Source: Phenylobacterium sp. (lineage in GTDB: Bacteria > Pseudomonadota > Alphaproteobacteria > Caulobacterales > Caulobacteraceae). Taken from it: a stretch of DNA of 64,000 nt. The notes under the pieces were generated by a model, which did no database searches, was not told the DNA's origin, and saw only the letters and a list, made by a program, of their open reading frames with translations. The stretch lies in contig NZ_JACESE010000014.1 in the NCBI RefSeq assembly GCF_013911965.1, forward strand, positions 43,296 to 107,295, in the 5' to 3' direction. Position numbers and translations under genes: made by a program. Below are positions 12,915 to 28,349 of this stretch, one piece after another (position 1 is the stretch's first letter; each line of letters starts with the position of its first letter).

Positions 12915-14042
12915 ATGAAGGCGCGCTATGACCTCGCCGTGGTCGGCGCCGGGATCGTCGGGCTCGCCTGCGCCCTGGCCGCGGCGCGCCGCGGCCGCTC
13001 GGTGGTGGTGATCGATCGGGACGCTCAGGCCAACGGCGCGTCGGTCCGCAACTTCGGCTTCGTCACGGTCACCGGCCAGCCTCGCGGCGGGATCTGGGCG
13101 CGGGCGCGCCGCAGCCGCGAGGTCTGGGACGAGATCGCCGGCGAGGCGGGGATCGAGGTCCTGCAGCGCGGCCTCTGGCTGCCGGTGCGCCGGCCCGAGG
13201 CCGTGGCGGTGCTCGAAGCCTTCCTGCGCACCGAGATGGGCGAGGAATGCCGGCTGCTCTCTCCGCAGGCGGCGCGGGCGCGGGCGCCGGAGGCGACCGG
13301 GCCGGAGACGGCCGCCGTTCTGTGGAGCCCCCACGAGCGGCGCGTGGATTCCCGCACGGCGATTCCCCGCCTGGCGGCCTGGCTGACGGCGCGATTCGGC
13401 GTCGACGTCCTGCGCCAGACGGCGGTCCATGAGGTGGCGCCGCCGCGCATCGCCACCGCCCGAGGCGCGATCGAGGCCGAGGCGGCCGTGGTCTGCCCGG
13501 GCGATGATCTCGTCAGCCTCTATCCCGGCCTGCTGGCCGATGCGGGCCTGGTCCGCTGCAAGCTGCAGATGATGCGCCTGGCGCCGCCAGGCTTCGCCTT
13601 GCCGTCGCCGGTGATGTCGGACCTCGGCCTCGTCCGCTATGGCGGCTACGCGGCCCTGCCCGAGGCGGCGGCCCTGCGCGAACGGCTGCAGGCGGAGCAG
13701 GGCGAGGCGCTGGCCCATGGCGTCCATCTCATCGCCGTCCAGGACGGCGACGGCGCCTTGGTGGTGGGCGACAGCCACCACGACGCCCCCACGCCCGATC
13801 CGTTCGCCAGCGAGGCGGTCGACCGGCTGATCCTGGACGAATGGCGTGCGGCGACGGGCCGGGACGCGCCGCCCGTCCTGCAGCGCTGGACCGGAACCTA
13901 TGCCCGCGGACCGCAGGACAGCCTGATCGCTGCGCCGCACGAGCGCGTGCGGCTGGCCCTCGTCACCGCCGGCAACGGCGCCTCCACCGCCTTCGCCTTC
14001 GGGGAGGAGGTGATCGCCGATCTCTTCGAGGAGACCCCATGA
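12915..14042 (+). CDS. FAD-dependent oxidoreductase, TIGR03364 type, phosphonate-associated
   Basis: A 375-residue DAO-fold flavoenzyme. The Rossmann motif VVGAGIVGLACALAAARRG occupies residues 8-26 with an acidic VVVIDRD after strand 2; the segment SVRNFGFVTVTGQPRGGIW near 37-55 is typical of the TIGR03364 clade, which is found beside phosphonatase-like hydrolases. It ends with a second FAD-contact region GNGASTAFAFGEE. GGGAGGGCG precedes the chosen ATG. Its stop overlaps the PhnX start by four bases. It probably oxidatively deaminates or dealkylates an aminoalkylphosphonate to give phosphonoacetaldehyde for PhnX, since no PhnW transaminase is present. The substrate is inferred, not shown. 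Confidence 0.88.
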   Translation: MKARYDLAVVGAGIVGLACALAAARRGRSVVVIDRDAQANGASVRNFGFVTVTGQPRGGIWARARRSREVWDEIAGEAGIEVLQRGLWLPVRRPEAVAVLEAFLRTEMGEECRLLSPQAARARAPEATGPETAAVLWSPHERRVDSRTAIPRLAAWLTARFGVDVLRQTAVHEVAPPRIATARGAIEAEAAVVCPGDDLVSLYPGLLADAGLVRCKLQMMRLAPPGFALPSPVMSDLGLVRYGGYAALPEAAALRERLQAEQGEALAHGVHLIAVQDGDGALVVGDSHHDAPTPDPFASEAVDRLILDEWRAATGRDAPPVLQRWTGTYARGPQDSLIAAPHERVRLALVTAGNGASTAFAFGEEVIADLFEETP

Positions 14043-14839
14043 GCGGGATTCGCAAGCACTTCGACATGGTCGTGTTCGACTGGGCGGGCACCATGGTCGA
14101 CTTCGGCAGCCGCGCCCCCGTCCTGGCGCTGATGGAGGCCTTCGCCGGCCTCGGCGCGCCGGTGGACGAGGCCGAGGCGCGACGCGACATGGGCCGGGCC
14201 AAGGCCGACCACGTCCGGGCCATGTTCGAGCAGCCCCGCATCGCCGAGGCCTGGCGGGCGGCGCACGGCGCGGCGCCCGATCAGGCGGCGGTCGACCGGG
14301 TCATGGCCGACCTGCAGGCGCCGATGATCCGTCTGGCGGGCGAGACGGCGGACCTGATCCCCGGCGCGGCCGAGACAGTGGCCCGACTGCGGGCGCAGGG
14401 GCTGAAGATCGCCTCCTGCACGGGCTACACGCGCCAGATGATGCAGGCGATCCTCGACCGGGCCGCCGCCCAGGGCTACGCGCCCGACCTGACGGTCTGC
14501 GCCCATGAGACGCCCGAGGGCCGCCCCTCGCCGCTGATGGTCTACAAGGCCTGCGTCGATCTCGGCGTCTGGCCCCTGGCGCGCGTGGTCAAGGTGGACG
14601 ACGCCGAGGCGGGCGTCGCCGAGGGGCGCAACGCCGGCTGCTTCACCGTCGGCGTCGCGGCTTCGGGCAACGCGGTGGGGCTGGCCGCCGAGGCGCTGTC
14701 GGCCCTCGACGCCAAGGCTCGCGCCGACCTGCTGAAGGCCGCCGGCGAGCGCCTCCTGGCGGCGGGCGCCGACATCGTCGTCGATACGGTCGCCGACCTG
14801 ATCCCGGCCCTGGAGGCCGAGGCCGCCCGGCGCAGCTGA
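14039..14839 (+). CDS. phnX: Phosphonoacetaldehyde hydrolase (phosphonatase)
   Basis: A 266-residue HAD-superfamily enzyme that cleaves the C-P bond of phosphonoacetaldehyde to acetaldehyde and phosphate. The HAD nucleophile is Asp14 in VVFDWAGTMVDFG; the cap-domain Lys that forms the Schiff base is Lys57 in MGRAKADHVRAM, aligning with MGLLKIDHVRAL of the Bacillus enzyme. The motifs SCTGYTRQMM, GRPSPLMVYKACVDLGVWP and VVKVDDAEAGVAEGRNAG complete the phosphonatase pattern. Length is as expected (about 267). Translationally coupled to the FAD oxidoreductase. The next gene converges on it with no intervening base: the two stop codons abut. Confidence 0.95.
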   Translation: MSGIRKHFDMVVFDWAGTMVDFGSRAPVLALMEAFAGLGAPVDEAEARRDMGRAKADHVRAMFEQPRIAEAWRAAHGAAPDQAAVDRVMADLQAPMIRLAGETADLIPGAAETVARLRAQGLKIASCTGYTRQMMQAILDRAAAQGYAPDLTVCAHETPEGRPSPLMVYKACVDLGVWPLARVVKVDDAEAGVAEGRNAGCFTVGVAASGNAVGLAAEALSALDAKARADLLKAAGERLLAAGADIVVDTVADLIPALEAEAARRS

Positions 14840-15406
14840 TCAGCCGCGGCGGGCGAGTTCGATCAGCATCGGCCGATAGTCGGAAAACGGCGCGACGCTC
14901 ACCCCTTCGGCCTTGCCGCGCTCGTCGTAGCGGCGCAGCCGGATGGCGGCGTCGAAGGCCGGCAGCCGTTCGAACGCCTCGGCTTCGGCGGCGTCCATCG
15001 GACCGCCCTGCAGGCCCAGGCTCTGGCGCGAGGCGGGGCTCAGCGCTTCGAGATAGCCCGGCTCGCGCAGCGCCAGATAGCGTTTGGCGTCCACGTGCAG
15101 ACGCACCGGTTCGGTGACCTCCGTCCCGAAGCCCTGCGCCAGCCAGGCGGCGCCGATCCGCTCGTGCAGGGCGTCGACCCCGCGGTCGGCGGCGTCCTCG
15201 CCGTGCTTCTGCAGCAGGTGGCCGATGTCGTGCAGCAGGGCGGCGGCGACGAGGGCGTCGGCCTGGCCCTCGCTCCGGGCGTGATGGGCGGTCTGCAGGG
15301 CGTGGTCCAGCTGCGTCACGGCCTCGCCATAGTGGTCGCCGCCCCGGCGGGCGAAGAGGGCGAGGATCGTATCGACAAAGGTCTCGGGCGAGGGGCCGGC
15401 GGTCAT
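14840..15406 (-). CDS. phnZ: PhnZ-like HD-domain mixed-valent di-iron oxygenase
   Basis: A 188-residue HD protein. Aligning it by eye with the known PhnZ shows all metal ligands: His35, His59-Asp60 (LLHDIGH), His81 (HERIG), His104 (RLHVDAKRYL) and Asp161 (RRYDERGK), plus substrate-contact residues Lys108 and the lid Tyr26/Glu28 (DHYGEAVTQLDHAL). PhnZ oxidises 2-amino-1-hydroxyethylphosphonate to glycine and phosphate. Its usual partner, the dioxygenase PhnY, is not in the window, so this copy may act on another 1-hydroxyphosphonate. A GntR-type palindrome lies 25 bases upstream. Start ATG follows a GTG; either is possible. Confidence 0.87.
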   Translation of the reverse strand: MTAGPSPETFVDTILALFARRGGDHYGEAVTQLDHALQTAHHARSEGQADALVAAALLHDIGHLLQKHGEDAADRGVDALHERIGAAWLAQGFGTEVTEPVRLHVDAKRYLALREPGYLEALSPASRQSLGLQGGPMDAAEAEAFERLPAFDAAIRLRRYDERGKAEGVSVAPFSDYRPMLIELARRG

Positions 15407-15430
15407 GACGCGATCCGGTGTTGATGTTGC

Positions 15431-15442
15431 TGGACTATACCA
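15431..15442. promoter_or_regulatory. GntR/PhnF-type palindrome, site 2
   Basis: TGGACTATACCA (TGGTATAGTCCA on the minus strand), flanked by C and G so that the arms CTGG/CCAG pair. It is 25 bases before the phnZ-like start, a position that would block the promoter or ribosome. It differs from the PhnF-type TGGTATAGACCA by one base. Confidence 0.6.
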
Positions 15443-15480
15443 GAGGCCTGACCGCTCCGCCCAGGCCCCGCCGGCCCCCT

Positions 15481-17157
15481 TCAGCGGGGGCTCAGCAGGT
15501 TCGGGTCGATGAACTGGCGCGGGATGCCGGGACCTTCGAAATAGGCGCCGAGCCAGGCGCCGCCGCCATTGTTGAACCATTCCACCCGGAGGGCCCGCCG
15601 TCCCCGTTGCAGATAGGTCGAGCCCCGGGCGGTGATCACGCCGTGGTCGCCGTCATTGTCGACCACCGTCTTGCCGTCGATGTAGAGCTTGCTGCCGTCG
15701 TCCGAGGCGAGGGAGAAGCTGTAGAAGCCGTCCTTCGGGACATCGATCCGCCCCTCGAAGACCACGGCGACGCTGTCGCCGCGGGGAAGGGTGAGCCCGG
15801 TCAGGCTCGGCTCGTAGGTCCGGCCGGTCGCCACCGGCTGAAGCGGGCCGAAGTCCGGAAGTCGGACCGGTCCTTCCGGCAGCAGATAGACCGAATAGGT
15901 CAGGCCGCGCGCCTCCGCCGTCGCCGCGTCGAGGACGCGGAAATAGGCGATGGCCGGCACGCTGGCCGGCTGGCCGTCGACGAACAGGGTGGCGCGCACG
16001 ATGGTGTTGCGCGCGATCTCCACGGGCCCGGCATAGAGCGCCGACTGGGCGGTGGGGATCGTGTTGTCCAGGGTGTAGCGGATCTCCCCCACCTTGTTCG
16101 GATTGCGCAGCGTCATCTGCGCCGGGCCGCCGACGAACAGGCCGCCGGCCGGATCGTTGCCTTCGCCGGCCGGCTCGATCACCGGCGAGGCGTAGAAGCT
16201 GCTTGCCCGATAGGCCTGGTCCGGCGCCGTCTCGCCGGCGATGGCGGGGGCCACGGGCCGGCCGAGCCAGGCATAGGGGATCTTCACGCCGAGCAGCCGC
16301 GCCGCCGTCGCCGGCGTGTCGAAGGTGTTGATCGGCAGGTCCAGCGCCTGGCCGCGCTGGATCGACTTGCCGTAGGCGATCCAGGGAATCTCCAGCTCCG
16401 CCAGGCTCTCGCCCCCGTGGCCCTTGCCCACGCCGCCATGGTCGGAGGTGACCAGGATCGCCGTATCGTCGGCGATGCCGGCCTCGGCCACGGCCTGGCG
16501 GATCCGGGCGATCAGCCGGTCGGCCTTGGCGACCGACGCGTAGTATTTCGGCGTCCCGTGGCCGTAGGCATGGCCGGCGTGATCCACCAGGTCGAGATGG
16601 ACGAAGAGGAAGGCGGGCCGTTTGGCCTTGATGTAGTCCACCGCCAGGTCGGTGGTCGCATCCTCGCCCTCGCCATGGGCGTCGTAGTCCACGAAACGGT
16701 GGTCGTAGAGATTGCCGAAGCCGTCCCAGTCGTAGATCGAGCCCACCTCCCATTCGGGATGCTGGTCGGTGATGACCTGGAAGATGGAGGGGAAGAAGCC
16801 GCCCGAGCCGGTGACGGAGGTCGGGAAGTTGAATTCGCTCACCTGCCAGTCGTTGCTGGTCACGCCGTGCTGCTCGGGCCCCGCGCCGGTCAGGATCGAG
16901 GCCCAGTTGGCGCCGCTGGTGGTCGGCAGCACGCCGCGGGCGTGCAGGCTCCAGCTGCCGCCGGCCATCATCTCGTCGAGGGTGGGCGTATCGGCCTTCA
17001 GCACGCCGTCGGGACTCATGCCGTCCACCCCGATGATGATGACGTGGCCGGCCTTGGGCGCGGCGCCGGAACTCTGCGCGGCGGCCGGAGCGGCGGCGGA
17101 CAGGAGAAGGACGGCCAGCGCGGCCAGCGCGGGCAAGCTGCGGGAGGGGGCGGGCAT
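15481..17157 (-). CDS. Exported type I phosphodiesterase (alkaline phosphatase superfamily) with C-terminal PA14 domain
   Basis: A 558-residue secreted enzyme. Sec signal at 1-28 (ending APAAAQ). Residues 36-290 form a nucleotide pyrophosphatase/phosphodiesterase fold with metal site Asp45 (GVDGM), a nucleophile region LPTTSGANW in which Ser81 takes the place of the usual Thr, DLVDHAGHAYGHG and TSDHGGVGKGHGGE. A chitobiase-like beta domain (IRYTLDNTIPT...) follows at about 345-400, and a PA14 domain (FYSFSLASDDGSKLYIDGK) closes the protein, suggesting glycan or surface binding. GGAG 8 bases upstream selects this start. It is controlled from the promoter region shared with the GntR gene, so it may release phosphonates from macromolecules. 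Confidence 0.88.
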   Translation of the reverse strand: MPAPSRSLPALAALAVLLLSAAAPAAAQSSGAAPKAGHVIIIGVDGMSPDGVLKADTPTLDEMMAGGSWSLHARGVLPTTSGANWASILTGAGPEQHGVTSNDWQVSEFNFPTSVTGSGGFFPSIFQVITDQHPEWEVGSIYDWDGFGNLYDHRFVDYDAHGEGEDATTDLAVDYIKAKRPAFLFVHLDLVDHAGHAYGHGTPKYYASVAKADRLIARIRQAVAEAGIADDTAILVTSDHGGVGKGHGGESLAELEIPWIAYGKSIQRGQALDLPINTFDTPATAARLLGVKIPYAWLGRPVAPAIAGETAPDQAYRASSFYASPVIEPAGEGNDPAGGLFVGGPAQMTLRNPNKVGEIRYTLDNTIPTAQSALYAGPVEIARNTIVRATLFVDGQPASVPAIAYFRVLDAATAEARGLTYSVYLLPEGPVRLPDFGPLQPVATGRTYEPSLTGLTLPRGDSVAVVFEGRIDVPKDGFYSFSLASDDGSKLYIDGKTVVDNDGDHGVITARGSTYLQRGRRALRVEWFNNGGGAWLGAYFEGPGIPRQFIDPNLLSPR

Positions 17158-17223
17158 GACGAGCTCCATCGGGGCGGGCGCCCGCCGGACGCCCGGCGGA
17201 TCGTGACCTGTTCAAGCCTGATC

Positions 17224-17235
17224 TGGTATGTACCA
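17224..17235. promoter_or_regulatory. GntR/PhnF-type palindrome, site 3
   Basis: TGGTATGTACCA has perfect 5-base arms around TG. It lies between the divergent phosphodiesterase and GntR genes, 67 bases before the former and 115 before the latter, so it may control both. Confidence 0.6.
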
Positions 17236-17349
17236 AACGGAGCGGGGCGGGAGCGCGAAGCTTTCGTGAAATGCCGCGCCCGGACGCATGGCGCTTGACG
17301 GCGCACCGGCCTTGGCCGGATCACAGGGCCTGACAATGCTGGGAACCCA

Positions 17350-18087
17350 ATGGCCGACTCCGTGCCCGCTGCGAGGTCCGAGGGCCTGCACTATCTGAGC
17401 CTGCGCGACGAGATCGCCGCCCGGATCGCCCAGGGCGCGCTGCGGCCCGGCGACAAGCTGCCGTCGGAGCGGGGCCTGCAAGGCGAACTCGGCGTGGCGC
17501 GCGGCACCATCCGCGAAGCCCTTTTCCAGCTGGAGGCCGAGGGCCTGGTCTATCGGCGCGACCGCAGCGGCTGGTACGTCTCGCCGCCGCCGGTCGTCTA
17601 CGACCCCACGCGCTGGGAGGGCTTCCTCTCCTATGTGGAGGCGCAAGGCCGCCGTCCGCGCACCGAGACCATTTCCGCCGAAACCATCGCGGCCGATCCT
17701 CTGCTGGCCGAGGTGTTCGGACGGCCGCTCGGCGCTCCCCTCTACCTGATCCGCCGGCGGCGCTATGTGGACGAGCGTGCGGTGCTGGTGGAGCGTATCG
17801 TCGTGGACGCGGCGCTCGCCCCGGATCTCCTCCGCCACAGCCTCGACCAGTCGCTGACCGACATACTGAAGGGCGGCTACGGCCTGTCGGTGGCGCGCAA
17901 CCAGGTCAGCATGCAGCCCTGCGCCCTGACCGGCGAGCACGCCGCGGCGCTGCGGGTGAAGTCCGGCCTTCCGGGCCTGGCCGTCCAGCGCACCAGCTAT
18001 GACGCACAGGGGCGCGTGGTGGAGTTCGACCACGAATACTGGCGCCACGACGCGGTGCGCATCAGCGTCGACATCCGCGTGCGGTGA
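17350..18087 (+). CDS. GntR/UTRA family regulator of the phosphonate locus (PhnF/PhnR-like)
   Basis: A 245-residue HutC-subfamily regulator. The winged HTH spans about 14-78 (LRDEIAARIAQGALRPGDKL, LPSERGLQGELGVARGTIREAL, GLVYRRDRSGWYVSPP) and the UTRA ligand domain about 95-240 (LYLIRRRRYVDERAVLVERI, VEFDHEYWRHDAVRI). UTRA regulators linked to phosphonate genes sense phosphonate intermediates or phosphate. Three TGG...CCA palindromes at the three promoters of the locus suit its dimeric HTH. Repression relieved by a phosphonate is the natural model, but the effector cannot be read from the sequence. It ends 22 bases from the convergent phospholipase gene. Confidence 0.92.
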   Translation: MADSVPAARSEGLHYLSLRDEIAARIAQGALRPGDKLPSERGLQGELGVARGTIREALFQLEAEGLVYRRDRSGWYVSPPPVVYDPTRWEGFLSYVEAQGRRPRTETISAETIAADPLLAEVFGRPLGAPLYLIRRRRYVDERAVLVERIVVDAALAPDLLRHSLDQSLTDILKGGYGLSVARNQVSMQPCALTGEHAAALRVKSGLPGLAVQRTSYDAQGRVVEFDHEYWRHDAVRISVDIRVR

Positions 18088-18109: not shown

Positions 18110-20203
18110 TCAGGCCGCCGTGGCGAGCCGAAGGGGCCCCGGGCCGCCGCCGGCCGGATCGGAATAGGACGGCGCGCCGTCCTCGACGTGGCCGGCGATC
18201 CTCCAGGTCTGTCCCGCCGCCGAGAAGCTCCGGTCATACCAGCCATGGCTTTCGGCCAGGTCCAGCCGATGGGCGCGCACCTCCCCCGGGGCCAGGGCGA
18301 TCACCTCCGGGGGCGCGCCATAGGACATATCCGACATGGCGAGGGTCAGGTTGTCTGGCGACAGGTTGGTCAGGCGCAGGACCGGACGGTCGCCGGAAGT
18401 CTCGTCGAGGGCGGCGGAGAAGAGGTCGCCCCGGCCGACCAGCCGCCGGTGAAAACCGTTGGGCGCCAGCACAAAGAGGTCGAGCGGCTCCCCGGCCGGC
18501 AGCGGGTGGGCGAGCGACTGGCCGGCGCCGACGGTGTAGCGCGCCGGGGTCTGGTCTGGCCGGGCGACGTCATAGACGTGGAACACCGCCGCCCGTTCGG
18601 CCGAGCGGTTGACGAAGCGCAGCGCGCCGCGGCCGTCCTCGACCTGCAGCACGGCGTCGAGCCGGTAGGGCGTGGGGCGCCGGCGGCGCAGACCGGTCTC
18701 CTGCTCGGGCGCCTGCAGACGGTCGGGGAGGGGCGGCTTCACCTCGTCCAGGCGGCCGGCGCGCTCCGACAGGGCCGCCGTGGCCGGCAGCGCCGGCATG
18801 AAGTCCACGTCGTCGGGCGCGGCGAAGTCGAAACAGGAGGTCAGGTCGCCGCACACGGCGCGCCGCCAGGCGCTGATGTTCGGCTCGCGCACGCCGAACC
18901 GCGCTTCGAGGAAGCGCAGGATGCTGGTGTGGTCGAAGACCTCGGAGGCGACGTGCCCGCCCCGGCTCCAGGGGGAGACGACGTACATCGGCACCCGCAT
19001 GCCCAGCCCGTAGGGGCGACCCTGATAAGGCGCGTCGGCGTCGCCCTGCACATGGGCATGATACTCGTCCTCGGCCGGGATGGTGGTCGCGCCCAGCGTG
19101 CGGCCTCCCTCGCGCGCCGGCGGGGCGGGCGGCGGCGCGTGATCGAACAGGCCGTCGTTCTCGTCGAAATTGATGAACAGCGCCGTGCGCGCCCAGACGG
19201 CCGGATTGGCGGTGAGCGCCTCCAGCACCTGCGCCGCATAGTCGGCGCCCTGCAGCGGCGTGGAGACGCTCGGATGCTCGGACAGGGCGGCCGGGGCGAT
19301 GATCCAGGAAACCTCCGGCAGGCGACCGGCCAGCACGTCCTGCTTGAGGTCGTCCAGGGTGCGCGTTGTCGTGGTCCGGCGCGCCAGCAGGGCCGCCGCC
19401 GCCCCGGCGGCGCCTTGCGCCCGGCGGTAGGACTGGAAGCCGACCAGGGGGTTGTCGGTGAAGTTGTCGGCCATGTCCTGATAGATCTGGAAGCCGACGC
19501 CGGCGGCCAGCAGGCGCTCCGGATAGGTCGCCCAGAGATAGCCGCCGTGCTTCAGCGGATCGCCCTCGAGCGTGTCGTAGCCGTTGTCGATGGCCGGCCC
19601 GTTCGCCTGGCCCAGGGGATCGTGCGTCCCGCTCCAGATGAACAGGCGGTTCGGGTTGGTGCTGGTGTGCAGGGCGCAGTGATAGGCGTCGCAGAGGGTG
19701 AAGGCCTCGGCCAGGGCGAACTGGAAGGGCAGGTCCTCGCGCGCGAAGTGGGCCATCGCATGGTTCTGCTTGAAGCGCGGCCACTCGCCCATGCGGCCAT
19801 TGTCCCAGGCGGCCTGGCTGTCGCCGAAACCGTGCGGCGTGCCGAGCGGCCGGTAGAGGCGGAAGTCGGCGGCCGTATCCAGCCGGAACGGCGCCAGCAG
19901 GGCGGGCTCGGCCCCGGCCTGCGCATTGGGCTGGACGAAGACCGTCCGATCCGGCGCGCCCGGCAGGGGCGGGGCGGGAATCGCAAAGCGGTCGCCGAAG
20001 CCGCGAACGCCCCGCATGGTGCCGAAGTAGTGGTCGAAGGAGCGGTTCTCCTGGGTGAGTATGACCACGTGGCCGACATCGGCGATCGTGCCGGTCCGGC
20101 GATCGGGCCCGATCTCCAGGGCGCGGGCGATGGCGGGGGTGAAGGCGCCGGCGGCGCCGGCCGTCGCCATCATGGCGCGGATGAAGCTGCGGCGATCCTG
20201 CAT
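18110..20203 (-). CDS. plcN: Tat-exported phospholipase C, phosphocholine-specific type
   Basis: A 697-residue enzyme of the acid phosphatase/PLC superfamily. A twin-arginine signal MQDRRSFIRAMMATAGAAGA leads to the conserved segment VVILTQENRSFDHYFGTMRG (about 43-62) and further metal/catalytic motifs (WIIAPAALSEHPS, FINFDENDGLFDH, RVPMYVVSPWSRGG). Two C-terminal beta domains (DUF756) follow from about 480. Length and order match Pseudomonas PlcN/PlcH. It cleaves phosphatidylcholine and related lipids outside the cytoplasm, freeing the head group. Of two ATGs in the frame, the second is better spaced from GAGGGA. It is beside the phosphonate locus, so phosphonolipids are possible substrates; this is inference. 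Confidence 0.92.
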   Translation of the reverse strand: MQDRRSFIRAMMATAGAAGAFTPAIARALEIGPDRRTGTIADVGHVVILTQENRSFDHYFGTMRGVRGFGDRFAIPAPPLPGAPDRTVFVQPNAQAGAEPALLAPFRLDTAADFRLYRPLGTPHGFGDSQAAWDNGRMGEWPRFKQNHAMAHFAREDLPFQFALAEAFTLCDAYHCALHTSTNPNRLFIWSGTHDPLGQANGPAIDNGYDTLEGDPLKHGGYLWATYPERLLAAGVGFQIYQDMADNFTDNPLVGFQSYRRAQGAAGAAAALLARRTTTTRTLDDLKQDVLAGRLPEVSWIIAPAALSEHPSVSTPLQGADYAAQVLEALTANPAVWARTALFINFDENDGLFDHAPPPAPPAREGGRTLGATTIPAEDEYHAHVQGDADAPYQGRPYGLGMRVPMYVVSPWSRGGHVASEVFDHTSILRFLEARFGVREPNISAWRRAVCGDLTSCFDFAAPDDVDFMPALPATAALSERAGRLDEVKPPLPDRLQAPEQETGLRRRRPTPYRLDAVLQVEDGRGALRFVNRSAERAAVFHVYDVARPDQTPARYTVGAGQSLAHPLPAGEPLDLFVLAPNGFHRRLVGRGDLFSAALDETSGDRPVLRLTNLSPDNLTLAMSDMSYGAPPEVIALAPGEVRAHRLDLAESHGWYDRSFSAAGQTWRIAGHVEDGAPSYSDPAGGGPGPLRLATAA

Positions 20204-20239
20204 CGTCATTCCCTCAAACGCTCCGGCGCGGGCCTGCGC

Positions 20240-21088
20240 CTATCCCCCGGCGCGGGCCAGGCTGACGCCGGTCTGCGGCAGGTCGTTGCTTTCGCCCTCG
20301 GCGATGTGGATGCGCGTGCCCGCCTCGGCGCAGGCCTGCCGCAAGGCGGCGGGCGGCTCCTTGTCGGTGACCAGATCCTGCACGTCGCGGAAGGCGGCCA
20401 CCTGGATGAAGCCCGACTTGGTGAACTTGGAATGGTCGGCCAGCACCACGATGCGCCGCGCCTGGCCGAGCAGGCTCTGCTTGAACGCGGCCTCGTCGGC
20501 GTCGAAGTCCAGCAGACCGCGCTCGGCGTCCACCGCGCCCATCGACAGGATGGTCAGATCCGGGGCGAAGCGCTGGCAGAAGGCCTGCGCCTCCGGGCCG
20601 AACGCGGCGTTGTGAATGGGGTTGATCTGGCCGCCGGCCAGCAGAAGCCGCTGGCCCGGATTGCCGAGCACCTCGTGGGCGATCTCGACGCTGTTGGTGA
20701 CGATGGTCAGGTTGCGCGTCGAGGCCAGGTTGCGGGCGAGCCAGTGACAGCTCGTGCCCGAGTCGATCAGGAGCGTCATCCCGTCGCTCACCAGCTCGGC
20801 CGCCTTGCGGGCGATGTGCTGCTTGGCGGCCGCGTTCTCGCGCAGGCGGATCCGGTAGGGCGCCTCGATCTTGTTGCTGGTCGCCGAAAGTCCGCCATGG
20901 ACCTTCTGGACGACGCCGCTCTGCTCGAGCTGACGGGCGTCGCGGCGGATGGTCTCCTCGGACACCTCGAACCGTTGGGCCAGTTCCGAAACGGTCCAGA
21001 ACGCCCGCTCGTCCAGCAGCCGAAGGATCTCGGCCAGCCGCGGGCCCTGGTTCAACTGCTTCATATCCTTGGGATTCGCGCTACGCAT
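20240..21088 (-). CDS. DeoR family transcriptional regulator
   Basis: A 282-residue regulator with a DeoR-type HTH at about 15-70 (AEILRLLDERAFWTVSELAQ, RFEVSEETIRRDARQLEQSG, VQKVHGGLS) and a sugar-phosphate-sensing domain with DSGTSCHWLARNL and IVTNSVEIAHEVL, then VVLADHSKFTKSGF. DeoR/GlpR relatives usually respond to phosphorylated sugars or glycerol phosphate. The gene is divergent from the TonB receptor at 21349; the 260-base region between them carries two 25-base direct repeats that are good candidate operators. It could also control the phospholipase gene 36 bases downstream, in the same direction. Confidence 0.92.
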   Translation of the reverse strand: MRSANPKDMKQLNQGPRLAEILRLLDERAFWTVSELAQRFEVSEETIRRDARQLEQSGVVQKVHGGLSATSNKIEAPYRIRLRENAAAKQHIARKAAELVSDGMTLLIDSGTSCHWLARNLASTRNLTIVTNSVEIAHEVLGNPGQRLLLAGGQINPIHNAAFGPEAQAFCQRFAPDLTILSMGAVDAERGLLDFDADEAAFKQSLLGQARRIVVLADHSKFTKSGFIQVAAFRDVQDLVTDKEPPAALRQACAEAGTRIHIAEGESNDLPQTGVSLARAGG

Positions 21089-21115
21089 CACGGACCCTCG
21101 CTATCAGGGCCAATT

Positions 21116-21213
21116 CCCACAAACAACCACATATTTCAACGTCGCCCGGCGGAGGATTTCGCGGCCCAGCGGGCCGATGTTGGGCAAACCCACAAGAACC
21201 CACACATTTCAAC
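21116..21213. repeat. Two 25-base imperfect direct repeats, probable DeoR operators
   Basis: Copies at 21116-21140 and 21189-21213 agree at 21 of 25 bases and are 73 bases apart (about seven helical turns). Shared core: CCCACAA, then ACC-ACA, then ATTTCAAC. They are AT-richer than anything around them. They lie between the DeoR gene and the divergent receptor, as expected for a DNA-looping repressor. Confidence 0.6.
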
Positions 21214-21348: not shown

Positions 21349-24135
21349 ATGTTGAAGCGACATGCCGGCCGCGCCGCGCGCCCGGACTTCAAGACGCTCT
21401 TGCTCGCCACCGCCTCGGTCGTCGCGGCCGGGGCCTGCTCGACCGATGCGCTTGCGCAGGACGCCGCCGGCAACGAGGTGGACGAGCTGGTGGTCACCGG
21501 CTACCGCAAGTCGCTCGGCGAGGCTCGTGACATCAAGCAGGAGTCGGTCATCCAGGTGGACGCCATCGTCGCCGAGGACATGGCCAAGTTCCCGGACCTG
21601 AACCTGGCGGAATCCCTGCAGCGGCTGCCCGGCGTGCAGATCACGCGCGAAGCCGGCGAGGGCCGGCGCATCTCGCTGCGCGGTCTCGGCCCCGACTTCG
21701 CCCGCGTGCAGCTCAACGGCATGGAAGTGCTGGGCAATGTCGACTCCGCCCAGGACAGCCGCGGCCAGCGGTCCCGTGACCGCGCCTTCGACTTCAACAT
21801 CTTCGCTTCGGAGCTGTTCTCGCGCGTGGAGGTCGAGAAGACCTATCAGGCGGCTCAGAAGGAAGGCGGCATGGCCGGCACGGTCGGCCTCTTCACCGGC
21901 AAGCCCTTCGACTATGGCGTGGGCAGCAAGGGCGCGGTGACCTTCAAGCTCGGCACCAACGAATACACCGAGGACGCCCAGCCGCGCATCGCCGCCCTCT
22001 TCAGCCACAACTGGGACGACACCTTCGGCGTCGCCTTCTCGGTCGCCTACAGCAAGCGCGAGACCACCGAGCAGGGCCACAACACCTACAACTACACCAA
22101 GCCCAGCGCCTCGACGATGCAGTCGCTGGTCACCCGCGGCCTCGACATCTCGGGCCTGAGCGCCGACGAGCGGGCCAAGTTCCTGTCGGGCGACCTCTAC
22201 TTCGCCGACGGCAACCGCATCTCGTCCTGGAACGCCGAGCAGGAGCGCCTGGGCCTGACGGCGGCGGTCCAGTGGCGGCCGGCCGACAATGTGGAACTGA
22301 CGCTCGACGTGCTGCGCGGCGAGTTCACCACCCAGCGCGAAGAGCTGCACCTGGCCACGCGGCCGCTGGCCTCGTCCGGCTCGGTTTCCTTCGACACCCC
22401 GGCCGGCGGCGTCTGGCCATCCATGTTCCAGACCGCCTCGGTCATCAACGACATCGCCTGGGACGCCGACAACTACGTCACCATGACCGACGTGACCGGC
22501 ACGACCTTCGGCAGCGAACACCGCCGCTCGCTGAACGAGAACCGTTTCAACCAGGTCGTCCTGACCGGGGAGTGGGGGCTCACCGACCGCCTGACCCTGG
22601 ACGGCCACGTGGGCTGGGAGAAGTCCACCTACGACACGCCCTATGACGACAAGCTCTACATGCGGGCCAAGGGCAACCAGATCGCCAACTACGGCGCCGA
22701 CGGCCGCTCCGCCGCGTTCTCCACGCCCGGCTGGGACCCCACGGACGCGTCCACCTACGCGATGGACTCCTTCTACTACCGCGGCTTCAACAATGAATCG
22801 GAGCTGCACGAGGCCGAGCTGAACGCCCGCTACGAGCTGAACGACGTCTGGACCCTCCGGGCGGGCGTCGCCTACCACAAGTTCCGTCAGCAGGGCATCG
22901 ACATGTTCTACGACGACAACGTCAACGGAACGCGCGACAAGACCCGCGGCACCTCGGTGGGCGACATCACCTACGTCTTCTCCAACGAGTTCGGCTCGTG
23001 GCTGGTCGGCGACTACGGCAAGGCCTTCGAGAAGTACAACGAGTACCACCGCTTCGGGCCGAACGCCGACGGCACGGGCGGGGCGCTGCAGGACATCGAG
23101 AACGTCTACGAGACGACCGAGGAGACCTATTCCGGCTTCGTGCAGGCCGATTGGGACAGCGATCTGTTCGGCAAGCGCTTCCGCGGCAATGTCGGCCTGC
23201 GCGGCTACAGCACCGACACCCGCAGCGTCGGCTGGATCCAGGGCGACAGCTACGCCTATCTGGGCACGGCGGACGTCGAGGGCGGCTACGAAGGCGTCCT
23301 GCCGGCGATGAACACCGTGCTGGAGCTGACGCCCGAAGTGCTGGTCCGCTTCTCCGCCACCCAGAACCTCAACCGTCCGGGCCTGAGCTCCATGGCGGCC
23401 GAGGGCAGCGCCTTCCAGGATCCGGACACCGGCGAGATCACCGCCTCGCGCGGCAACCCCGACCTGAAGCCCTACAAGGACCTCACGCTGGACCTCGCCG
23501 TCGAGTACTACTTCGCCCAGACGGGTCTGCTGTCGGCCAGCGTCTTCCACAAGAAGATCGAGAACTTCATCGGGACCGAGCGGCTGGAGAACGTGCCCTT
23601 CAGCGAAACCGGCGTTCCCTACACCACCATTCCCGGCGCGACCGCCAATTCGATCGTCTCCGAGTTCTCGATGCCGACCAATATCGAGGGCACGAAGCGG
23701 CTGACCGGGGTGGAGCTGGCCGCCCAGAGCCAGCTCACCTTCCTGCCGGCGCCGTTCAACGGCCTGGGCGTGGTGGCCAACTATACCTATGTCGACGCCG
23801 ACGAGGCGCTGACGGGCATCTCGAAGACCAGCTACAACGCCACCGTCTTCTACGAGACCGCCCGGTGGGGCGCGCGCGCCTCGCTCAACCACCGCGACAA
23901 GTGGTACACGGGCCGCAATGACAGCGTGATGAGCGCCAGCACCCGCGGCTTCGAAGGCGGCGCCTATGTGGACGCCGCGGCCTTCTACAACGTCACCGAC
24001 GACCTCCAGATCACCTTCGACGCGGTCAACCTGACCAACGAGAAGGACACCCAGTTCTGGGGCCAGAACCGCTACCTCTATAACCAGAACCAGAGCGGCA
24101 CGACCTACATGGTCGGGGCCAGCTACAGGTTCTGA
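21349..24135 (+). CDS. TonB-dependent receptor, TonB-Xanth-Caul (TIGR01782-like) type
   Basis: A 928-residue receptor. A signal segment spans roughly 1-36 (ending DALAQDAAG); a TonB-box-like VDELVVTGYRKSL follows; the plug shows FPDLNLAESLQRLPGVQITR and the phrase EGRRISLRGLGPDFARVQLN that typifies the TonB-Xanth-Caul group, many of which import oligosaccharides or their derivatives. The barrel ends ...GTTYMVGASYRF with terminal Phe. GGGGG 7 bases before ATG sets the start. Regulation by the divergent DeoR protein is likely. A hairpin follows the stop, then the sulfotransferase/hydroxylase genes. Confidence 0.95.
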   Translation: MLKRHAGRAARPDFKTLLLATASVVAAGACSTDALAQDAAGNEVDELVVTGYRKSLGEARDIKQESVIQVDAIVAEDMAKFPDLNLAESLQRLPGVQITREAGEGRRISLRGLGPDFARVQLNGMEVLGNVDSAQDSRGQRSRDRAFDFNIFASELFSRVEVEKTYQAAQKEGGMAGTVGLFTGKPFDYGVGSKGAVTFKLGTNEYTEDAQPRIAALFSHNWDDTFGVAFSVAYSKRETTEQGHNTYNYTKPSASTMQSLVTRGLDISGLSADERAKFLSGDLYFADGNRISSWNAEQERLGLTAAVQWRPADNVELTLDVLRGEFTTQREELHLATRPLASSGSVSFDTPAGGVWPSMFQTASVINDIAWDADNYVTMTDVTGTTFGSEHRRSLNENRFNQVVLTGEWGLTDRLTLDGHVGWEKSTYDTPYDDKLYMRAKGNQIANYGADGRSAAFSTPGWDPTDASTYAMDSFYYRGFNNESELHEAELNARYELNDVWTLRAGVAYHKFRQQGIDMFYDDNVNGTRDKTRGTSVGDITYVFSNEFGSWLVGDYGKAFEKYNEYHRFGPNADGTGGALQDIENVYETTEETYSGFVQADWDSDLFGKRFRGNVGLRGYSTDTRSVGWIQGDSYAYLGTADVEGGYEGVLPAMNTVLELTPEVLVRFSATQNLNRPGLSSMAAEGSAFQDPDTGEITASRGNPDLKPYKDLTLDLAVEYYFAQTGLLSASVFHKKIENFIGTERLENVPFSETGVPYTTIPGATANSIVSEFSMPTNIEGTKRLTGVELAAQSQLTFLPAPFNGLGVVANYTYVDADEALTGISKTSYNATVFYETARWGARASLNHRDKWYTGRNDSVMSASTRGFEGGAYVDAAAFYNVTDDLQITFDAVNLTNEKDTQFWGQNRYLYNQNQSGTTYMVGASYRF

Positions 24136-24155
24136 CACGAACCCACGCTAGGCTC

Positions 24156-24185
24156 GGCGCCCGTCTCGATCCGGAGGCGGGCGCC
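24156..24185 (+). terminator. 12-bp hairpin between receptor and sulfotransferase genes
   Basis: GGCGCCCG pairs with CGGGCGCC; a T-G wobble and CTC/GAG extend the stem to about 12 bp around a GATCCG loop. No T run follows (CCCTTCG). It is 21 bases after the receptor stop and 20 before the next start, so it probably lowers read-through or protects receptor mRNA from 3' decay rather than ending transcription fully. Confidence 0.5.
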
Positions 24186-24205
24186 CCCTTCGTGTCCCGA
24201 AGCCC

Positions 24206-24844
24206 ATGATCATCTCCCACCGGCGCCGCTTCGTCTTCGCCGCCGTGCCCAAGACCGGCACCCACGCGGTGCGCCAGGCCCTGCGCGAACAGCTGGGGGA
24301 GGAGGATCTCGAACAGGTGGGCCTGTTCGTCGACAAGCGCTTCCCCTGGGCGGACCTGGCCGCCATCCGCCACGGTCACCTCGCCCTGCGCCAGGTGCGG
24401 CCCTATCTCGGCGAGGCGGCCTTCGGCGGCTATCTGAAGTTCGCCTTCGTGCGCAATCCGTTCGACCGCTTCGTCTCCTACTGCGCCTTCATGCTGCGCG
24501 GCGGCGACCTCTTCCAGCAGCGGCCGAAAGAGATGATGCGCCACTTCCTGTTCCGCGACCCGCCCGAGCACCACGTCCTCTTCCAGCCCCAGGCCTCGCT
24601 GCTCGTGGACGAGGACGGCGAGACCCTGCTGACCGACATGATCGGCCGGGTGGAGGAGATGCAGGCCTCATACGAGGCGATCTGCGCCCGGATCGGCATA
24701 CCCGCGCGGCGGCTGGACCGCGTCAACGCCAGCCAGCACGGTGACTACCGCCGCTACTACGATCCCGCCCTGGTCGATGCGGTGGCCGCCCGCTACCGGC
24801 GGGACCTGGACCTGTTCGGCTACGATTTCGAGGGGCCGAGATGA
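24206..24844 (+). CDS. Sulfotransferase family protein
   Basis: A 212-residue PAPS-dependent sulfotransferase-like protein (Sulfotransfer_2 type). The 5'-phosphosulfate loop is PKTGT at residues 15-19 (FVFAAVPKTGTHAVRQALRE), and the 3'-phosphate motif is KFAFVRNPFDRFVSYC near 78-93. There is no signal peptide or membrane helix, so it should act in the cytoplasm. Short length and the Sulfotransfer_2 look suit carbohydrate or protein acceptors. Its stop overlaps the next start (ATGA). It is the first of four translationally packed genes after the TonB receptor. Confidence 0.9.
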   Translation: MIISHRRRFVFAAVPKTGTHAVRQALREQLGEEDLEQVGLFVDKRFPWADLAAIRHGHLALRQVRPYLGEAAFGGYLKFAFVRNPFDRFVSYCAFMLRGGDLFQQRPKEMMRHFLFRDPPEHHVLFQPQASLLVDEDGETLLTDMIGRVEEMQASYEAICARIGIPARRLDRVNASQHGDYRRYYDPALVDAVAARYRRDLDLFGYDFEGPR

Positions 24845-25470
24845 GCCCCCCGCCGCTGCAGCTTTCGGCCAATCCGCGCAAGACGGCCGGGGTCCGCAAC
24901 CTGGGGCCCGTCGACATCGAGGCCCTGCGGGCCGCGGTCCTGGCGATCCCAGAGGCGGTGTGGCGCACTGAGGATCAGGCCAAGCCCAACCGGTTCGGAG
25001 TGTTGGACGACACCCGCCACATCGTTTTCCGCTTCGTCGACAATCCCCTCGACTGGCGCGGCTCGCACGACCGCCCGGCCTGGCCGCAGTGGCGTCCCCT
25101 GCTGGCGCCGGTGCTGGACGCGGCGGTGCGCCCCTATGGCTATGGGCGGGGGGTCTTTCCCCGGGTCATGCTGGCCCGCATGCGGCCTGGCGGCGTGATC
25201 CACCCCCATGTCGACGCCAATCCCGCGGCCAGATGGCCTCACAAGATCCACGTGCCGCTGCTGACCAATGCCGGCGTGCTCTGCTTCTTCGGCGGCGAGG
25301 CGCGCCATTTCCCGCCGGGCGAGGCGGTGGAGGTCGACAATCTCGGTCCCCATTGGGTGAAGAACACCGGCGGGACCGACCGCATCCACCTGATCTTCGA
25401 GTACTACGACGCCGACCAGCCCGACCCCGACTGGCTGGCGCCCTTGCTGCGTCAGGCGGTGTCGCGGTGA
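24841..25470 (+). CDS. Aspartyl/asparaginyl beta-hydroxylase-like Fe(II)/2-oxoglutarate oxygenase
   Basis: A 209-residue double-stranded beta-helix oxygenase (Asp_Arg_Hydrox family). Iron ligands: His123 in GGVIHPHVDAN (with Asp125 close by) and His171 in NLGPHWVKN. Arg181 in the following DRIHLIFEY strand is placed to bind 2-oxoglutarate. No export signal. It overlaps both neighbours by four bases, so its product is made in step with the two sulfotransferases. The substrate could be a peptide or the receptor itself, but nothing in the sequence proves this. Confidence 0.88.
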   Translation: MSPPPLQLSANPRKTAGVRNLGPVDIEALRAAVLAIPEAVWRTEDQAKPNRFGVLDDTRHIVFRFVDNPLDWRGSHDRPAWPQWRPLLAPVLDAAVRPYGYGRGVFPRVMLARMRPGGVIHPHVDANPAARWPHKIHVPLLTNAGVLCFFGGEARHFPPGEAVEVDNLGPHWVKNTGGTDRIHLIFEYYDADQPDPDWLAPLLRQAVSR

Positions 25471-27398
25471 ACGCCCCGGTCTCGCCGCGTCCCGGCGCGC
25501 CGGACCGCGAGGCGCTTCTCCAGGAGGCCCGGGCGCTGCGCGCCCGCCAGCGCCTGGCCGAGGCGCTCGAAGTCCTCGGACGGCTGCAGGACCTCCACCC
25601 CCGGTTCAGCCGCGGTTATCAGGAGCTTGGCCATTGCCACGTCCTGCGCGGGGATCTGCCGGCTGCGCTCGCCGCCCTGCAGACGGCGGTGCGCCTGAAC
25701 CCGACCCTGCCAGCCGCCTGGGACATGCTGGCGCAGCTGCACCGCCTGCGCGGCGACCCGGCCGCGGCGGCCGAGGCCGCTCAACGGCGGGCCCTGCTCG
25801 AGCAGCTTCCGCCGGAGGTGGTGGCGGCCAACAGCCTCTATGCCGACGGCGACCTGGCGCCGGCCGAGACGGTGATCCGGGCCTATCTGCGGAATGATCC
25901 GGCCAATGCCGGCGCCTGGCGCCTTCTGGCGCGTCTCCGGATCGAGCAGGACGGACTGGACGAGGCGGAAGCCCTGCTGCGCGCCCTGCTCCAACGGGCG
26001 CCCGACTATCATGAGGCGCGGCTGGACTACGCCATCGCGCTCCTGCAGGGGGGCAAGCCGCTGGAGGCGCGCCGGCAGGCCGAGCGCCTGCTCGCCCACG
26101 ACCCGGACGACCGCGATCACGTCAAGCAGTACGCCGCGGCCTGCGTCGCCCTGGGCGACCACGAGCCGGTGATCGACCTCTATGCCCGTCTGCTGGCGGC
26201 GGGATGCAAGACCCCGGCGGAGGCCGCCGACCTCCATCTGTGGCGGGCCAACGCGCTCAAGGTCGCCGGTCGTCAGGCCGAAGCGGTCGCCGACTACCGC
26301 GCATCCCTGGCGGCGCGGCCGGATAACGGCGTCGCCTGGTTCAGCCTCGCCAACCTGAAGACCTACCGCTTCACCGATGCGGAGATCGCCCGGATGCAGG
26401 CGGCGCAGGCAAGGCCGGACCTGCCGGACATGGACCACGTCTATCTCGCCTTCGCGCTCGGCAAGGCGCTGGAGGATCGCGGCGACTACGAAGCCTCCTG
26501 GCGCAACTACGAACGCGGCGCCGCCATCCGGCGCGCGGCCGGCCGCTATCGCGCCGAGACCGCCGAGGCCTGCGTCGACCGGCTGAAGCAGGTCTTCACC
26601 GCCCAGGTGTTCGCCGAGCGGAGCGGGTGGGGTGCGCCGGATCCGGCCCCGATCTTCGTCGTCGGCCTGCCGCGTTCGGGATCGACCCTCGTGGAGCAGA
26701 TCCTGGCCTCACATTCGGCCGTGGAAGGCACGCAGGAGCTGACCGAGATCGACCGCTACGCCGGCGAACTGTGCGGATACGACCCCGATTGCCGCCTGTC
26801 CCTCGATCCCGCCGCGATCCTGCGGCTGGACAGGGCGCAGGTGCGCGCCCTGGGGGAACGCTTCCTCGCCGACACGGCCGTGTATCGCCGGCTCGGCCGG
26901 CCCCGGTTCATCGACAAGGCGCCGAACAACTTCTGGCACATCGGCCTGATCCAGCTGATCCTCCCAGGGGCCACCATCATCGATGTGCGACGCGAGCCGA
27001 TGGCCTGCGGATTCAGTAACTTCAAGCAGCTTTTTGGGACGACGCATCAGGAGTTCAGCTACGGGCTCGAGGACATCGCGCGCCACTACCGAGCCTATCT
27101 CGACCTGATGGCGCACTGGGACCGGGTCCTGCCCGGGCGGGTCCTGCGGTTGAGCTACGAGAACCTCGTCGAGGATCTTGGGGCGAACGTCCGGCGCATG
27201 CTCGCCCACTGCGGCTTGGCCTTCGAACCCGCCTGCCTGGCCTTCCACGAAACCCGTCGCAGCGTCCGCACGCCCAGTTCCGAACAGGTGCGCCAGCCGA
27301 TCGGCCGGGAGGGCCTGACGCAGTGGAAGAACTATGCGGCGTGGCTGTCGCCCCTCAGGGACGCCCTCGGCGACGCCGTCACGAGATACAGGGACTGA
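25467..27398 (+). CDS. TPR-repeat sulfotransferase
   Basis: A 643-residue two-part protein that starts with GTG overlapping the previous stop (GTGA). Residues 15-365 carry about eight tetratricopeptide repeats (for example ALEVLGRLQDLHPRFSRGYQ and ALAALQTAVRLNPTLPAAWD), a scaffold for protein or peptide binding. Residues 393-640 form a Sulfotransfer_3 domain with GLPRSGSTLVEQILASH (PAPS loop 401-407) and DVRREPMACGFSNFKQLF for the 3'-phosphate. This organisation resembles protein tyrosine sulfotransferase-like enzymes widespread in alphaproteobacteria. No signal peptide. The TPR part suggests a protein substrate, which fits a modification cassette beside the receptor. Confidence 0.92.
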   Translation: MNAPVSPRPGAPDREALLQEARALRARQRLAEALEVLGRLQDLHPRFSRGYQELGHCHVLRGDLPAALAALQTAVRLNPTLPAAWDMLAQLHRLRGDPAAAAEAAQRRALLEQLPPEVVAANSLYADGDLAPAETVIRAYLRNDPANAGAWRLLARLRIEQDGLDEAEALLRALLQRAPDYHEARLDYAIALLQGGKPLEARRQAERLLAHDPDDRDHVKQYAAACVALGDHEPVIDLYARLLAAGCKTPAEAADLHLWRANALKVAGRQAEAVADYRASLAARPDNGVAWFSLANLKTYRFTDAEIARMQAAQARPDLPDMDHVYLAFALGKALEDRGDYEASWRNYERGAAIRRAAGRYRAETAEACVDRLKQVFTAQVFAERSGWGAPDPAPIFVVGLPRSGSTLVEQILASHSAVEGTQELTEIDRYAGELCGYDPDCRLSLDPAAILRLDRAQVRALGERFLADTAVYRRLGRPRFIDKAPNNFWHIGLIQLILPGATIIDVRREPMACGFSNFKQLFGTTHQEFSYGLEDIARHYRAYLDLMAHWDRVLPGRVLRLSYENLVEDLGANVRRMLAHCGLAFEPACLAFHETRRSVRTPSSEQVRQPIGREGLTQWKNYAAWLSPLRDALGDAVTRYRD

Positions 27399-27401
27399 GG
27401 C

Positions 27402-28349
27402 ATGCGTCTGTCGCGCCCCTTCTTCCAGCTTCCCGTCCTGTTCGACGTCGACCGCCTGCAGGCGGAGGTCGCGGCCCTGCCGCCGGAGGCCTGGGTTCCC
27501 CATCCCGACGGGTTGGCCGGCAACAGCGCGGCGCGCCTGATCAGCGCCGGCGGCGGAGAGACGGACTCGGTGCACGGCCAGATGCTGCCGACGCCCTGGC
27601 TCGCCGGCTCGCCCTATCTGCGCCAGGTCCTCGCCGGCTTCGGCGTGGTGTGGAGCCGTTCGCGGCTGATGCGCCTGGCGCCCGGCGTGGGCGTGCCGGA
27701 GCACGCCGACATCAACTACCACTGGCACACGCGGGTCAGGCTGCACATCCCGGTGTTCACGCGGCCGGAGGTGCGCTTCCACTGTGACGGACAGTCGGTC
27801 CACATGGCCGCGGGCGAGGCCTGGATCTTCGACAACTGGCGCCGGCACCATGTGGAGAACGGCGCCCAGGCTGACCGCATCCATCTGGTGGCCGACACCA
27901 CAGGCACCGCCGCCTTCTGGCGCTTCGCCTGCAGCGAGCCGCCGCCGCGCGACCAGTGGCGCACCGTGGCCTGGAATCCGGCGGCGCGGCCTCGACTGCT
28001 GACCGAGCGCAACGCGCGCTCGGCGGTGATGCCGGCCGCCGAGGTGGAGCTTCTGGTGGGCGACCTGCGCACGGAGATCGCCCTCGCCGCGGACACGCCC
28101 GAGCACCGGGCCCGCGCCGCCAGGTTCGAACGGCTTCTGGAGAGCTTCGTGCAGGACTGGCGTCAGCTGTGCGCCCTGCATGGCGTGGCCGGGGAGGGGC
28201 GTGAGGCCTTCCGGGAGCTGGCCGGCGCCGTGCGCGAGGCGGCGAGGCCCCTGGCCGAGGGGCTGGTCATGCGGACCAATAATGCTGGCGCGTTTCTGGT
28301 CCTCGAAAAGCGCGTTCTCCAGCACCTTGTGGCCGAGGAGGCGGTCTAG
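27402..28349 (+). CDS. Second aspartyl/asparaginyl beta-hydroxylase-like oxygenase with C-terminal helical extension
   Basis: A 315-residue relative of the 24841 gene product, from the same fold but only distantly similar. Residues 1-170 hold the oxygenase: His101/Asp103 in GVPEHADINYHWHTRVRLH and the second His pair in NWRRHHVENG (about 149-150), followed by Arg159 for 2-oxoglutarate. Residues 175-315 are a helical extension of unknown role (ERLLESFVQDWRQLCALHG...). It starts three bases after the TPR-sulfotransferase stop. Having two hydroxylases and two sulfotransferases in one run is the notable point. Confidence 0.88.
   Translation: MRLSRPFFQLPVLFDVDRLQAEVAALPPEAWVPHPDGLAGNSAARLISAGGGETDSVHGQMLPTPWLAGSPYLRQVLAGFGVVWSRSRLMRLAPGVGVPEHADINYHWHTRVRLHIPVFTRPEVRFHCDGQSVHMAAGEAWIFDNWRRHHVENGAQADRIHLVADTTGTAAFWRFACSEPPPRDQWRTVAWNPAARPRLLTERNARSAVMPAAEVELLVGDLRTEIALAADTPEHRARAARFERLLESFVQDWRQLCALHGVAGEGREAFRELAGAVREAARPLAEGLVMRTNNAGAFLVLEKRVLQHLVAEEAV

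Follow-up and report, generated by a model that had tools for sequence, protein, structure and literature searches.

The window analysed here, a stretch of 64,000 nucleotides from Phenylobacterium sp. (RefSeq assembly GCF_013911965.1, contig NZ_JACESE010000014.1, positions 43,296 to 107,295 of the forward strand), contains a cassette in which a TonB-dependent receptor gene is followed by four closely coupled genes for two sulfotransferases (ST1 and TPR-ST) and two Asp/Asn hydroxylase-like 2-oxoglutarate (2OG) oxygenases (AH1 and AH2). The gene content, the linkage to the receptor, the fold relations of the enzymes and the conservation of their active-site residues are directly observed. A tentative explanation for the cassette is that the four enzymes have as their substrate the receptor precursor, or a different exported protein serving the receptor, and modify it before Sec-dependent export.

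The receptor gene (21349-24135, plus strand) encodes a protein of the TonB-Xanth-Caul family, matching TIGR01782 with 632 bits (cut-off 310), and contains both the plug domain (PF07715, 56.5 bits) and the β-barrel domain (PF00593, 122.5 bits). It is followed on the same strand by ST1 of the Sulfotransfer_2 family (24206-24844; PF03567, 47.1 bits against a cut-off of 22), AH1 (24841-25470; PF05118, 38.9 bits against 22.6), TPR-ST, which combines tetratricopeptide repeats (TPRs) with a TPST-like sulfotransferase domain (25467-27398; PF13469, 155.1 bits against 27), and AH2, an oxygenase with a C-terminal helical part (27402-28349; PF05118, 49.4 bits against 22.6). An initial annotation of the locus had described a receptor with four coupled enzyme genes, and all five are indeed present, each scoring above its family cut-off. 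The receptor and ST1 genes are separated by 70 nt, ST1 and AH1 as well as AH1 and TPR-ST overlap by 4 nt, and TPR-ST and AH2 lie 3 nt apart, in agreement with the earlier account of three out of four junctions as overlapping or leaving only three bases. The spacing between receptor and ST1 is 64-83 nt in 40 of the 44 loci measured, and chance alone is far from accounting for the gene order of the cassette.

The earlier observation that relatives of animal sulfation and hydroxylation enzymes are united in one run is borne out by the relation of TPR-ST to TPST and by the PF05118 matches of both oxygenases. TPR-ST consists of a TPR superhelix (approximately residues 11-360) and a TPST-like domain (approximately residues 390-643), to which TPST is nearer in fold than other sulfotransferases. 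Residues P402, R403, G405, T407, E424 and R509 are identical in all 43 aligned sequences (42 picked out of 72 found and the window copy), and S517 in 37 of the 43. The 3′-phosphoadenosine-5′-phosphosulfate (PAPS) site motif is present, as is the glutamate, which the alignment places at the EE motif of TPST and which is presumably catalytic. In ST1, P15, K16, T17, G18, T19, R83, R88 and S91 are identical in 24 out of 24 aligned sequences (23 picked out of 44 found and the window copy). AH1 and AH2 both keep a complete H-x-D...H triad: H123, D125, H171 and R181 of AH1 are identical in all 23 aligned sequences (21 picked out of 40 found, the L087 copy and the window copy), and H101, D103, H149 and R159 of AH2 in all 54. 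These residues are taken here to be the metal and 2OG ligands. The fold matches of AH2 include AspH together with L-proline cis-4-hydroxylase, proline 3-hydroxylase and a nucleoside-antibiotic hydroxylase, and the profiles of ST1 and AH1 matched nothing relevant in the PDB. Signal sequences of all proteins were judged by eye; no export signal is visible in ST1, AH1, TPR-ST or AH2, and the four enzymes are therefore expected to be cytosolic.

The scan of named genomes covered the best 80 of 169 matches to AH2-derived patterns (loci L108-L187). These patterns under-sample cassettes without AH2, which is partly corrected by order-level searches with the receptor and ST1. The alphaproteobacterial set of 54 loci comprises those with an AH2 identity above 62%, and L156 and L179 (AH2 52%), which were included manually on the strength of matches in their other genes; for a few loci (e.g. 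L128, an uncultured bacterium) no class is stated. The set spans Caulobacter, Brevundimonas, Phenylobacterium, Asticcacaulis, Sphingomonas, Sphingobium, Novosphingobium, Altererythrobacter, Erythrobacter, a Rhizobiales bacterium and metagenome-assembled genomes (MAGs). Fourteen loci with too little upstream DNA were dropped. The initial annotation had proposed comparing the neighbourhoods of homologous receptors for conserved co-occurrence. In the 40 counted loci, the receptor, ST1 and TPR-ST are present in 40/40 each, and AH1 in 39/40. Gene counts for this set and for the gamma/beta set below rest on tblastn and profiles over all open frames, since the codon-usage gene-calling script misses genes in lower-GC loci. 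In L144 (a Sphingomonas) the receptor gene is called as three pieces and is possibly a broken copy.

Five order-level searches were treated as one sample of 299 genomes because the same handles recur. A receptor at least 70% identical occurs in 8 of these genomes, the same 8 that contain a close AH2, and ST1 is present in all 8; four more genomes (G172, G205, G236, G329) contain ST1 at 55-64% identity. Named loci and loci with G handles partly overlap (e.g. L158/G283, L124/G017). Within the genus, full-length AH2 is found in 3 of 36 genomes, its own included. Across the class 17 of 385 genomes matched, the only close match being its own genome, followed by G060 (341 bits) and G409 (227 bits).

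Related enzymes also accompany other receptor families. At the 11 loci of the next-nearest receptors (38-50% identical), ST1, AH1, TPR-ST and AH2 are all absent by tblastn (approximately 1.5 kb). Among 26 gamma- and betaproteobacterial loci (Steroidobacter, Peristeroidobacter, Ideonella, Rubrivivax, Nevskia, Hydrocarboniphaga and MAGs), a receptor is present in 23, a TPR-ST-like gene in 23, and AH2 and a sulfotransferase domain joined in one frame in 22; phosphonate, phospholipase C and phosphodiesterase genes were found in 0 of the 26. The joining was confirmed by Pfam for L161, which additionally contains a TPR-AspH gene and a 2OG-Fe(II) oxygenase. The L161 receptor shares merely 29% identity with the window receptor over 189 amino acids, 16 other gamma/beta receptors match it full-length at 39-59%, and the L170 receptor is distinct again. 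Furthermore, the 16 strong PF13469 matches in eight Caulobacterales genomes comprise 5 cassette genes and 11 genes in 10 other loci, 7 of which have a directly adjacent receptor. Neighbours such as an amino-acid permease and amidohydrolase (L227), a nucleoside transporter (L230) and a Rieske oxygenase (L226) in part indicate other nutrients. In L256, ST1, AH1, two TPR-ST-like genes and AH2 surround a receptor distantly related to the gamma/beta receptors. Another TonB receptor gene of the window, directly followed by a glycerophosphodiester phosphodiesterase gene (51913-55835, plus strand), encodes a protein 34% identical to this L256 receptor, and two modules of TonB receptor, FecR and sigma factor are located at 47348-51720 and 57113-61099 (both minus strand).

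The initial annotation had omitted a minus-strand phospholipase C gene (18110-20209) and a set of phosphonate genes (11476-18087) upstream of the receptor. This stretch is a phosphorus-scavenging island, with gene families that are observed and a substrate that we infer. It encodes a DUF5690 membrane protein, a possible transporter judging from its location (11476-12795, minus; PF18943, 516 bits), an FAD oxidase of the PbfD/HpnW type (12915-14042, plus; TIGR03364, 401 bits against a cut-off of 285), the phosphonoacetaldehyde hydrolase PhnX (14039-14839, plus; TIGR01422, 323 bits against 220) and a PhnZ/TmpB-like oxygenase, Phn-HD (14840-15406, minus; TIGR03276, 224.8 bits against 214.6), which reaches 176 bits against the TmpB model, under its cut-off of 300. 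These are followed by a type I phosphodiesterase with PA14 domain (15481-17169, minus; PF01663, 109.5 bits; PF07691, 56.6 bits) and a hydrophobic, signal-like N-terminus, a GntR/UTRA regulator (17350-18087, plus; TIGR03337, 260 bits), named only PhnR-like because the equivalog cut-off of 297 is not reached, and the phosphocholine-type phospholipase C (TIGR03396, 773 bits against 580), which has a twin-arginine-like N-terminus (RRSFIR). PbfD converts N-methyl-aminoethylphosphonate into phosphonoacetaldehyde by oxidation, and PbfD1 carries the TIGR03364 annotation (PMC10590968). The phosphonoacetaldehyde formed in this step is hydrolysed by PhnX. Judging from the linkage in sequence, a phosphonate conjugate is probably taken up via the receptor.

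Phosphonate genes are found in 29 of the 40 alphaproteobacterial loci, and in 37 when phospholipase C or phosphodiesterase is also counted; Phn-HD is present in 18. Their side, order and orientation relative to the cassette vary among genera, so that the linkage does not reflect a single frozen block. In the order sample, PhnX occurs in 8/8 cassette genomes versus 17/291 others (Fisher 8e-10) and Phn-HD in 8/8 versus 9/291 (Fisher 2e-11), kinship being ignored in both tests; in G293 the two genes lie on a different contig from the cassette. In L334 (6201-15016), phosphonate genes (HpnW 52%, DUF5690 58%) lie next to a different receptor and a TPR-ST that shares 52% identity with that of the window.

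A DeoR-family regulator gene (20240-21091, minus strand; PF00455, 166.5 bits; PF08220, 57.2 bits) and two operator-like 25-nt direct repeats (21116-21140 and 21189-21213; 84% identical, 73 nt apart) precede the receptor. The repeats, already reported in the initial annotation, are real: a 13-nt core (at most 2 mismatches) recurs 5′ of the receptor in all 7 of the other loci whose DeoR is orthologous (76-80%), is paired at a spacing of 72-73 nt in three of them (L112, L118, L127), and was found in just 1 of the other 34 that were scanned. The two repeats are good operator candidates for DeoR. A Pho-box-like site was found in 9 of 41 upstream regions (L120, L126, L128, L133, L135, L136, L140, L144, L156), none with a DeoR match; 50 mononucleotide shuffles gave a mean of 1.24 and a maximum of 4. 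It appears as if DeoR-type and Pho-box-type control substitute for each other. The PhoB regulon of Caulobacter crescentus is described as containing TonB receptors thought to import alternative phosphate donors, and also phospholipase C (PMC11208175).

The receptor is the simplest common factor of the enzyme-bearing loci, and because it is the constant partner it is the best candidate target. The relations to TPST and AspH and the TPRs make a protein substrate likely; that this protein is the receptor, and which residues are modified, is what we infer. In the proposed sequence of events, the exported phospholipase C and phosphodiesterase would, judging from their families, liberate phosphonate-bearing head groups or esters. 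The conjugate would cross the outer membrane through the linked receptor, and its phosphate would be released by the PbfD-type oxidase with PhnX and by Phn-HD, families that are seen here with a presumed substrate. In the cytosol, the TPR superhelix of TPR-ST would hold the unfolded chain, a tyrosine of which would be sulfated by the TPST-like domain, and side chains would be hydroxylated by the AspH/proline-hydroxylase-like enzymes; these modifications may tune ligand binding, assembly or recognition. A broader and more speculative extension is a proteobacterial system for TonB-receptor tailoring, in which cytosolic, TPR-guided TPST-like enzymes, often with hydroxylase-like oxygenases (some fused to a sulfotransferase), would act before export and would have been recruited to varied receptor families and nutrients, including the phosphonate-conjugate receptor here.

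Cassette receptors contain 3.44 acid-flanked tyrosines per 1000 residues and other TPR-ST-linked receptors 3.57, versus 2.80 in 28 other receptors of the genome (28 of its 47) and 2.19 in near relatives without the cassette. Acidic-tyrosine enrichment as a shared receptor mark is unsupported across the linked receptors. Naming a target site from cassette-specific conserved residues (40 cassette receptors and the 9 of 11 non-cassette receptors that were long enough) was also abandoned, with many such positions found, as in any ortholog group.

Several observations weigh against receptor tailoring. Gamma/beta-linked receptors contain only 1.24 acid-flanked tyrosines per 1000 residues, leaving no common enrichment, and since these tyrosines are rarer there, the classical TPST consensus is disfavoured. 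At more distant ST1 loci a receptor is present in L256, approximately 2 kb off in L087 and 4 kb off in L254, and L253 contains ST1-AH1 with no receptor within 18 kb. TPR-ST occurs without a receptor nearby in L229 and L231, and one gene away from it in L232. In g12 genomes, which are probably Brevundimonas, no receptor was seen near the AH2-sulfotransferase fusions; the fusion is a 611-625 amino acid protein in which AH2 is joined to a segment containing the sulfotransferase motif PRSGST (read by eye), and its neighbours read, without a search, as RNase R, NUDIX and glutathione reductase. Similar fusions, such as L075:10161-12005 (by eye) and L090:9421-11304 (Pfam), lie away from phosphonate genes. 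Three of the 40 cassette loci (L126, L127, L142) have no phosphonate, phospholipase C or phosphodiesterase genes, and conversely L330, L331, L332 and L335 are phosphonate islands with a receptor and no cassette. Phospholipase C is present in the latter four together with a different TonB receptor, and sulfotransferases or hydroxylases of the cassette families are not. Because such islands exist, phosphonate use as such does not depend on the cassette.

Among the best fold matches of AH2 are hydroxylases of free amino acids and nucleoside antibiotics, so that a small-molecule target is possible. The enzymes might act on a small molecule or short peptide imported or released via the receptor, sparing the receptor itself, an explanation that is rather unlikely. 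It would suit enzymes without a visible export signal that adjoin an import operon, and the peptidase-like or peptide-transporter neighbours at some loci (DUF885 in L161, S15 in L170, an oligopeptide-type ABC transporter in L175). However, related enzyme sets pair with differing receptor families and differing neighbours, and the TPST-like domain and TPR superhelix favour protein substrates. In addition, no conserved small open reading frame was found in 500-nt stretches upstream (41 searched) or 800-nt stretches downstream (52 searched); the best-conserved frames (best 12 of each set) were pieces of the flanking DeoR and Phn-HD genes or antisense. The initial annotation had offered the receptor, a secreted peptide or an imported glycan as the target, an interpretation that is partly supported: the constancy of the receptor supports the first, and no precursor frame beyond flanking-gene pieces emerged for the second.

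The phosphorus-scavenging setting, the phospholipase C and the Pho-box-like sites would also fit an envelope remodelled under phosphate starvation, in which lipids or surface glycans are sulfated and hydroxylated to replace phosphate groups. Starved Caulobacter swaps out phospholipids (PMC11208175), and AH2 gives a trace match to the LpxO model. This match is 17.7 bits against a cut-off of 500, however, phosphonate, phospholipase C and phosphodiesterase genes are absent from the gamma/beta loci, the nearest relation of TPR-ST is TPST, and the main text on the C. crescentus PhoB regulon (PMC11208175) does not contain the word sulfotransferase; remodelling is considered improbable. It is still harder to see AH1 or AH2 as the missing hydroxylase in the role of PhnY/TmpA, supplying 1-hydroxy-aminophosphonate to Phn-HD, even though Phn-HD is part of the island, no PhyH- or TauD-type Pfam match occurs among the island genes scanned and both oxygenases keep the 2OG-oxygenase residues. 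This candidate role is weakened by cassette-free Phn-HD clusters: Phn-HD is found in the 9 of 291 cassette-free genomes mentioned above, and no AH match lies near it in L330-L333 (other hydroxylase types were not searched there). Moreover, it is present in fewer than half of the cassette loci, the oxygenases accompany sulfotransferases and receptors where phosphonate genes are absent, and two sulfotransferases would be left unexplained. Vertical hitch-hiking of an operon inherited as a block without functional coupling is hardly credible; related genera do not provide independent loci, but the phosphonate genes differ by genus in side, orientation and order, and related enzymes persist while the receptor family changes.

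Bacterial protein tyrosine sulfation is, to our knowledge, represented by the RaxX peptide alone, and RaxST is a bacterial sulfotransferase likened to animal TPST. RaxX is a 60-residue precursor encoded in the raxX-raxSTAB cluster of Xanthomonas (PMC6637879). The cassette likewise places a bacterial sulfotransferase in a dedicated cluster, but the stretches searched yielded no precursor, the sulfotransferase carries a TPR superhelix, hydroxylases accompany it and the constant partner is a TonB receptor. Human AspH is regarded as lacking the acid of the metal triad, whereas AH1 and AH2 have the full H-x-D...H triad and AH2 also has its C-terminal helical part; the fold match and PF05118 are shared with animal AspH and bacterial proline hydroxylases (PDB 5apa, 4p7w, 1e5r). 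Compared to animal TPSTs (PDB 5wri, 3ap1, 8w5z), TPR-ST is 18-21% identical over the aligned part, is fused to TPRs and has no visible export or membrane signal. Aminoethylphosphonate clusters share the PbfD-type oxidase, PhnX and a PhnZ-type HD oxygenase with the island (PMC10590968, PMC10574752), which adds the receptor, phospholipase C and modification cassette; the word 'TonB' is absent from the main texts of both papers. PMC7142613 and PMC1790865 use neither the word sulfotransferase nor the word phosphonate in their main text.

A literature search covering few subscription journals found no description of the combination of sulfotransferase, hydroxylase and TonB receptor (e.g. in Caulobacter), of tyrosine sulfation linked to TonB-dependent receptors or bacterial outer-membrane proteins, or of TonB-dependent uptake, aminoethylphosphonate and phospholipase C together. 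Sulfotransferase, tetratricopeptide and receptor gave no relevant title, and no paper brought together three of the four themes of receptor, tryptophan halogenase, SapC and Xanthomonas. The parts are of known kinds, while the combination, its link to receptors across families and its setting in a phosphonate island are apparently undescribed in the literature searched, as the initial annotation had held for the function of the combination.

Wide conservation of a TPST-like enzyme linked to uptake receptors would open the post-translational tailoring of outer-membrane receptors to testing and would account for a gene theme beside receptors that is apparently undescribed; it would also suggest that phosphonate conjugates have a path through the outer membrane, one not described in the literature consulted here. 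If the receptor were shown to be modified, the system would be categorically new. At the level of sequence, the locus suggests that bacteria may chemically tailor their uptake receptors.

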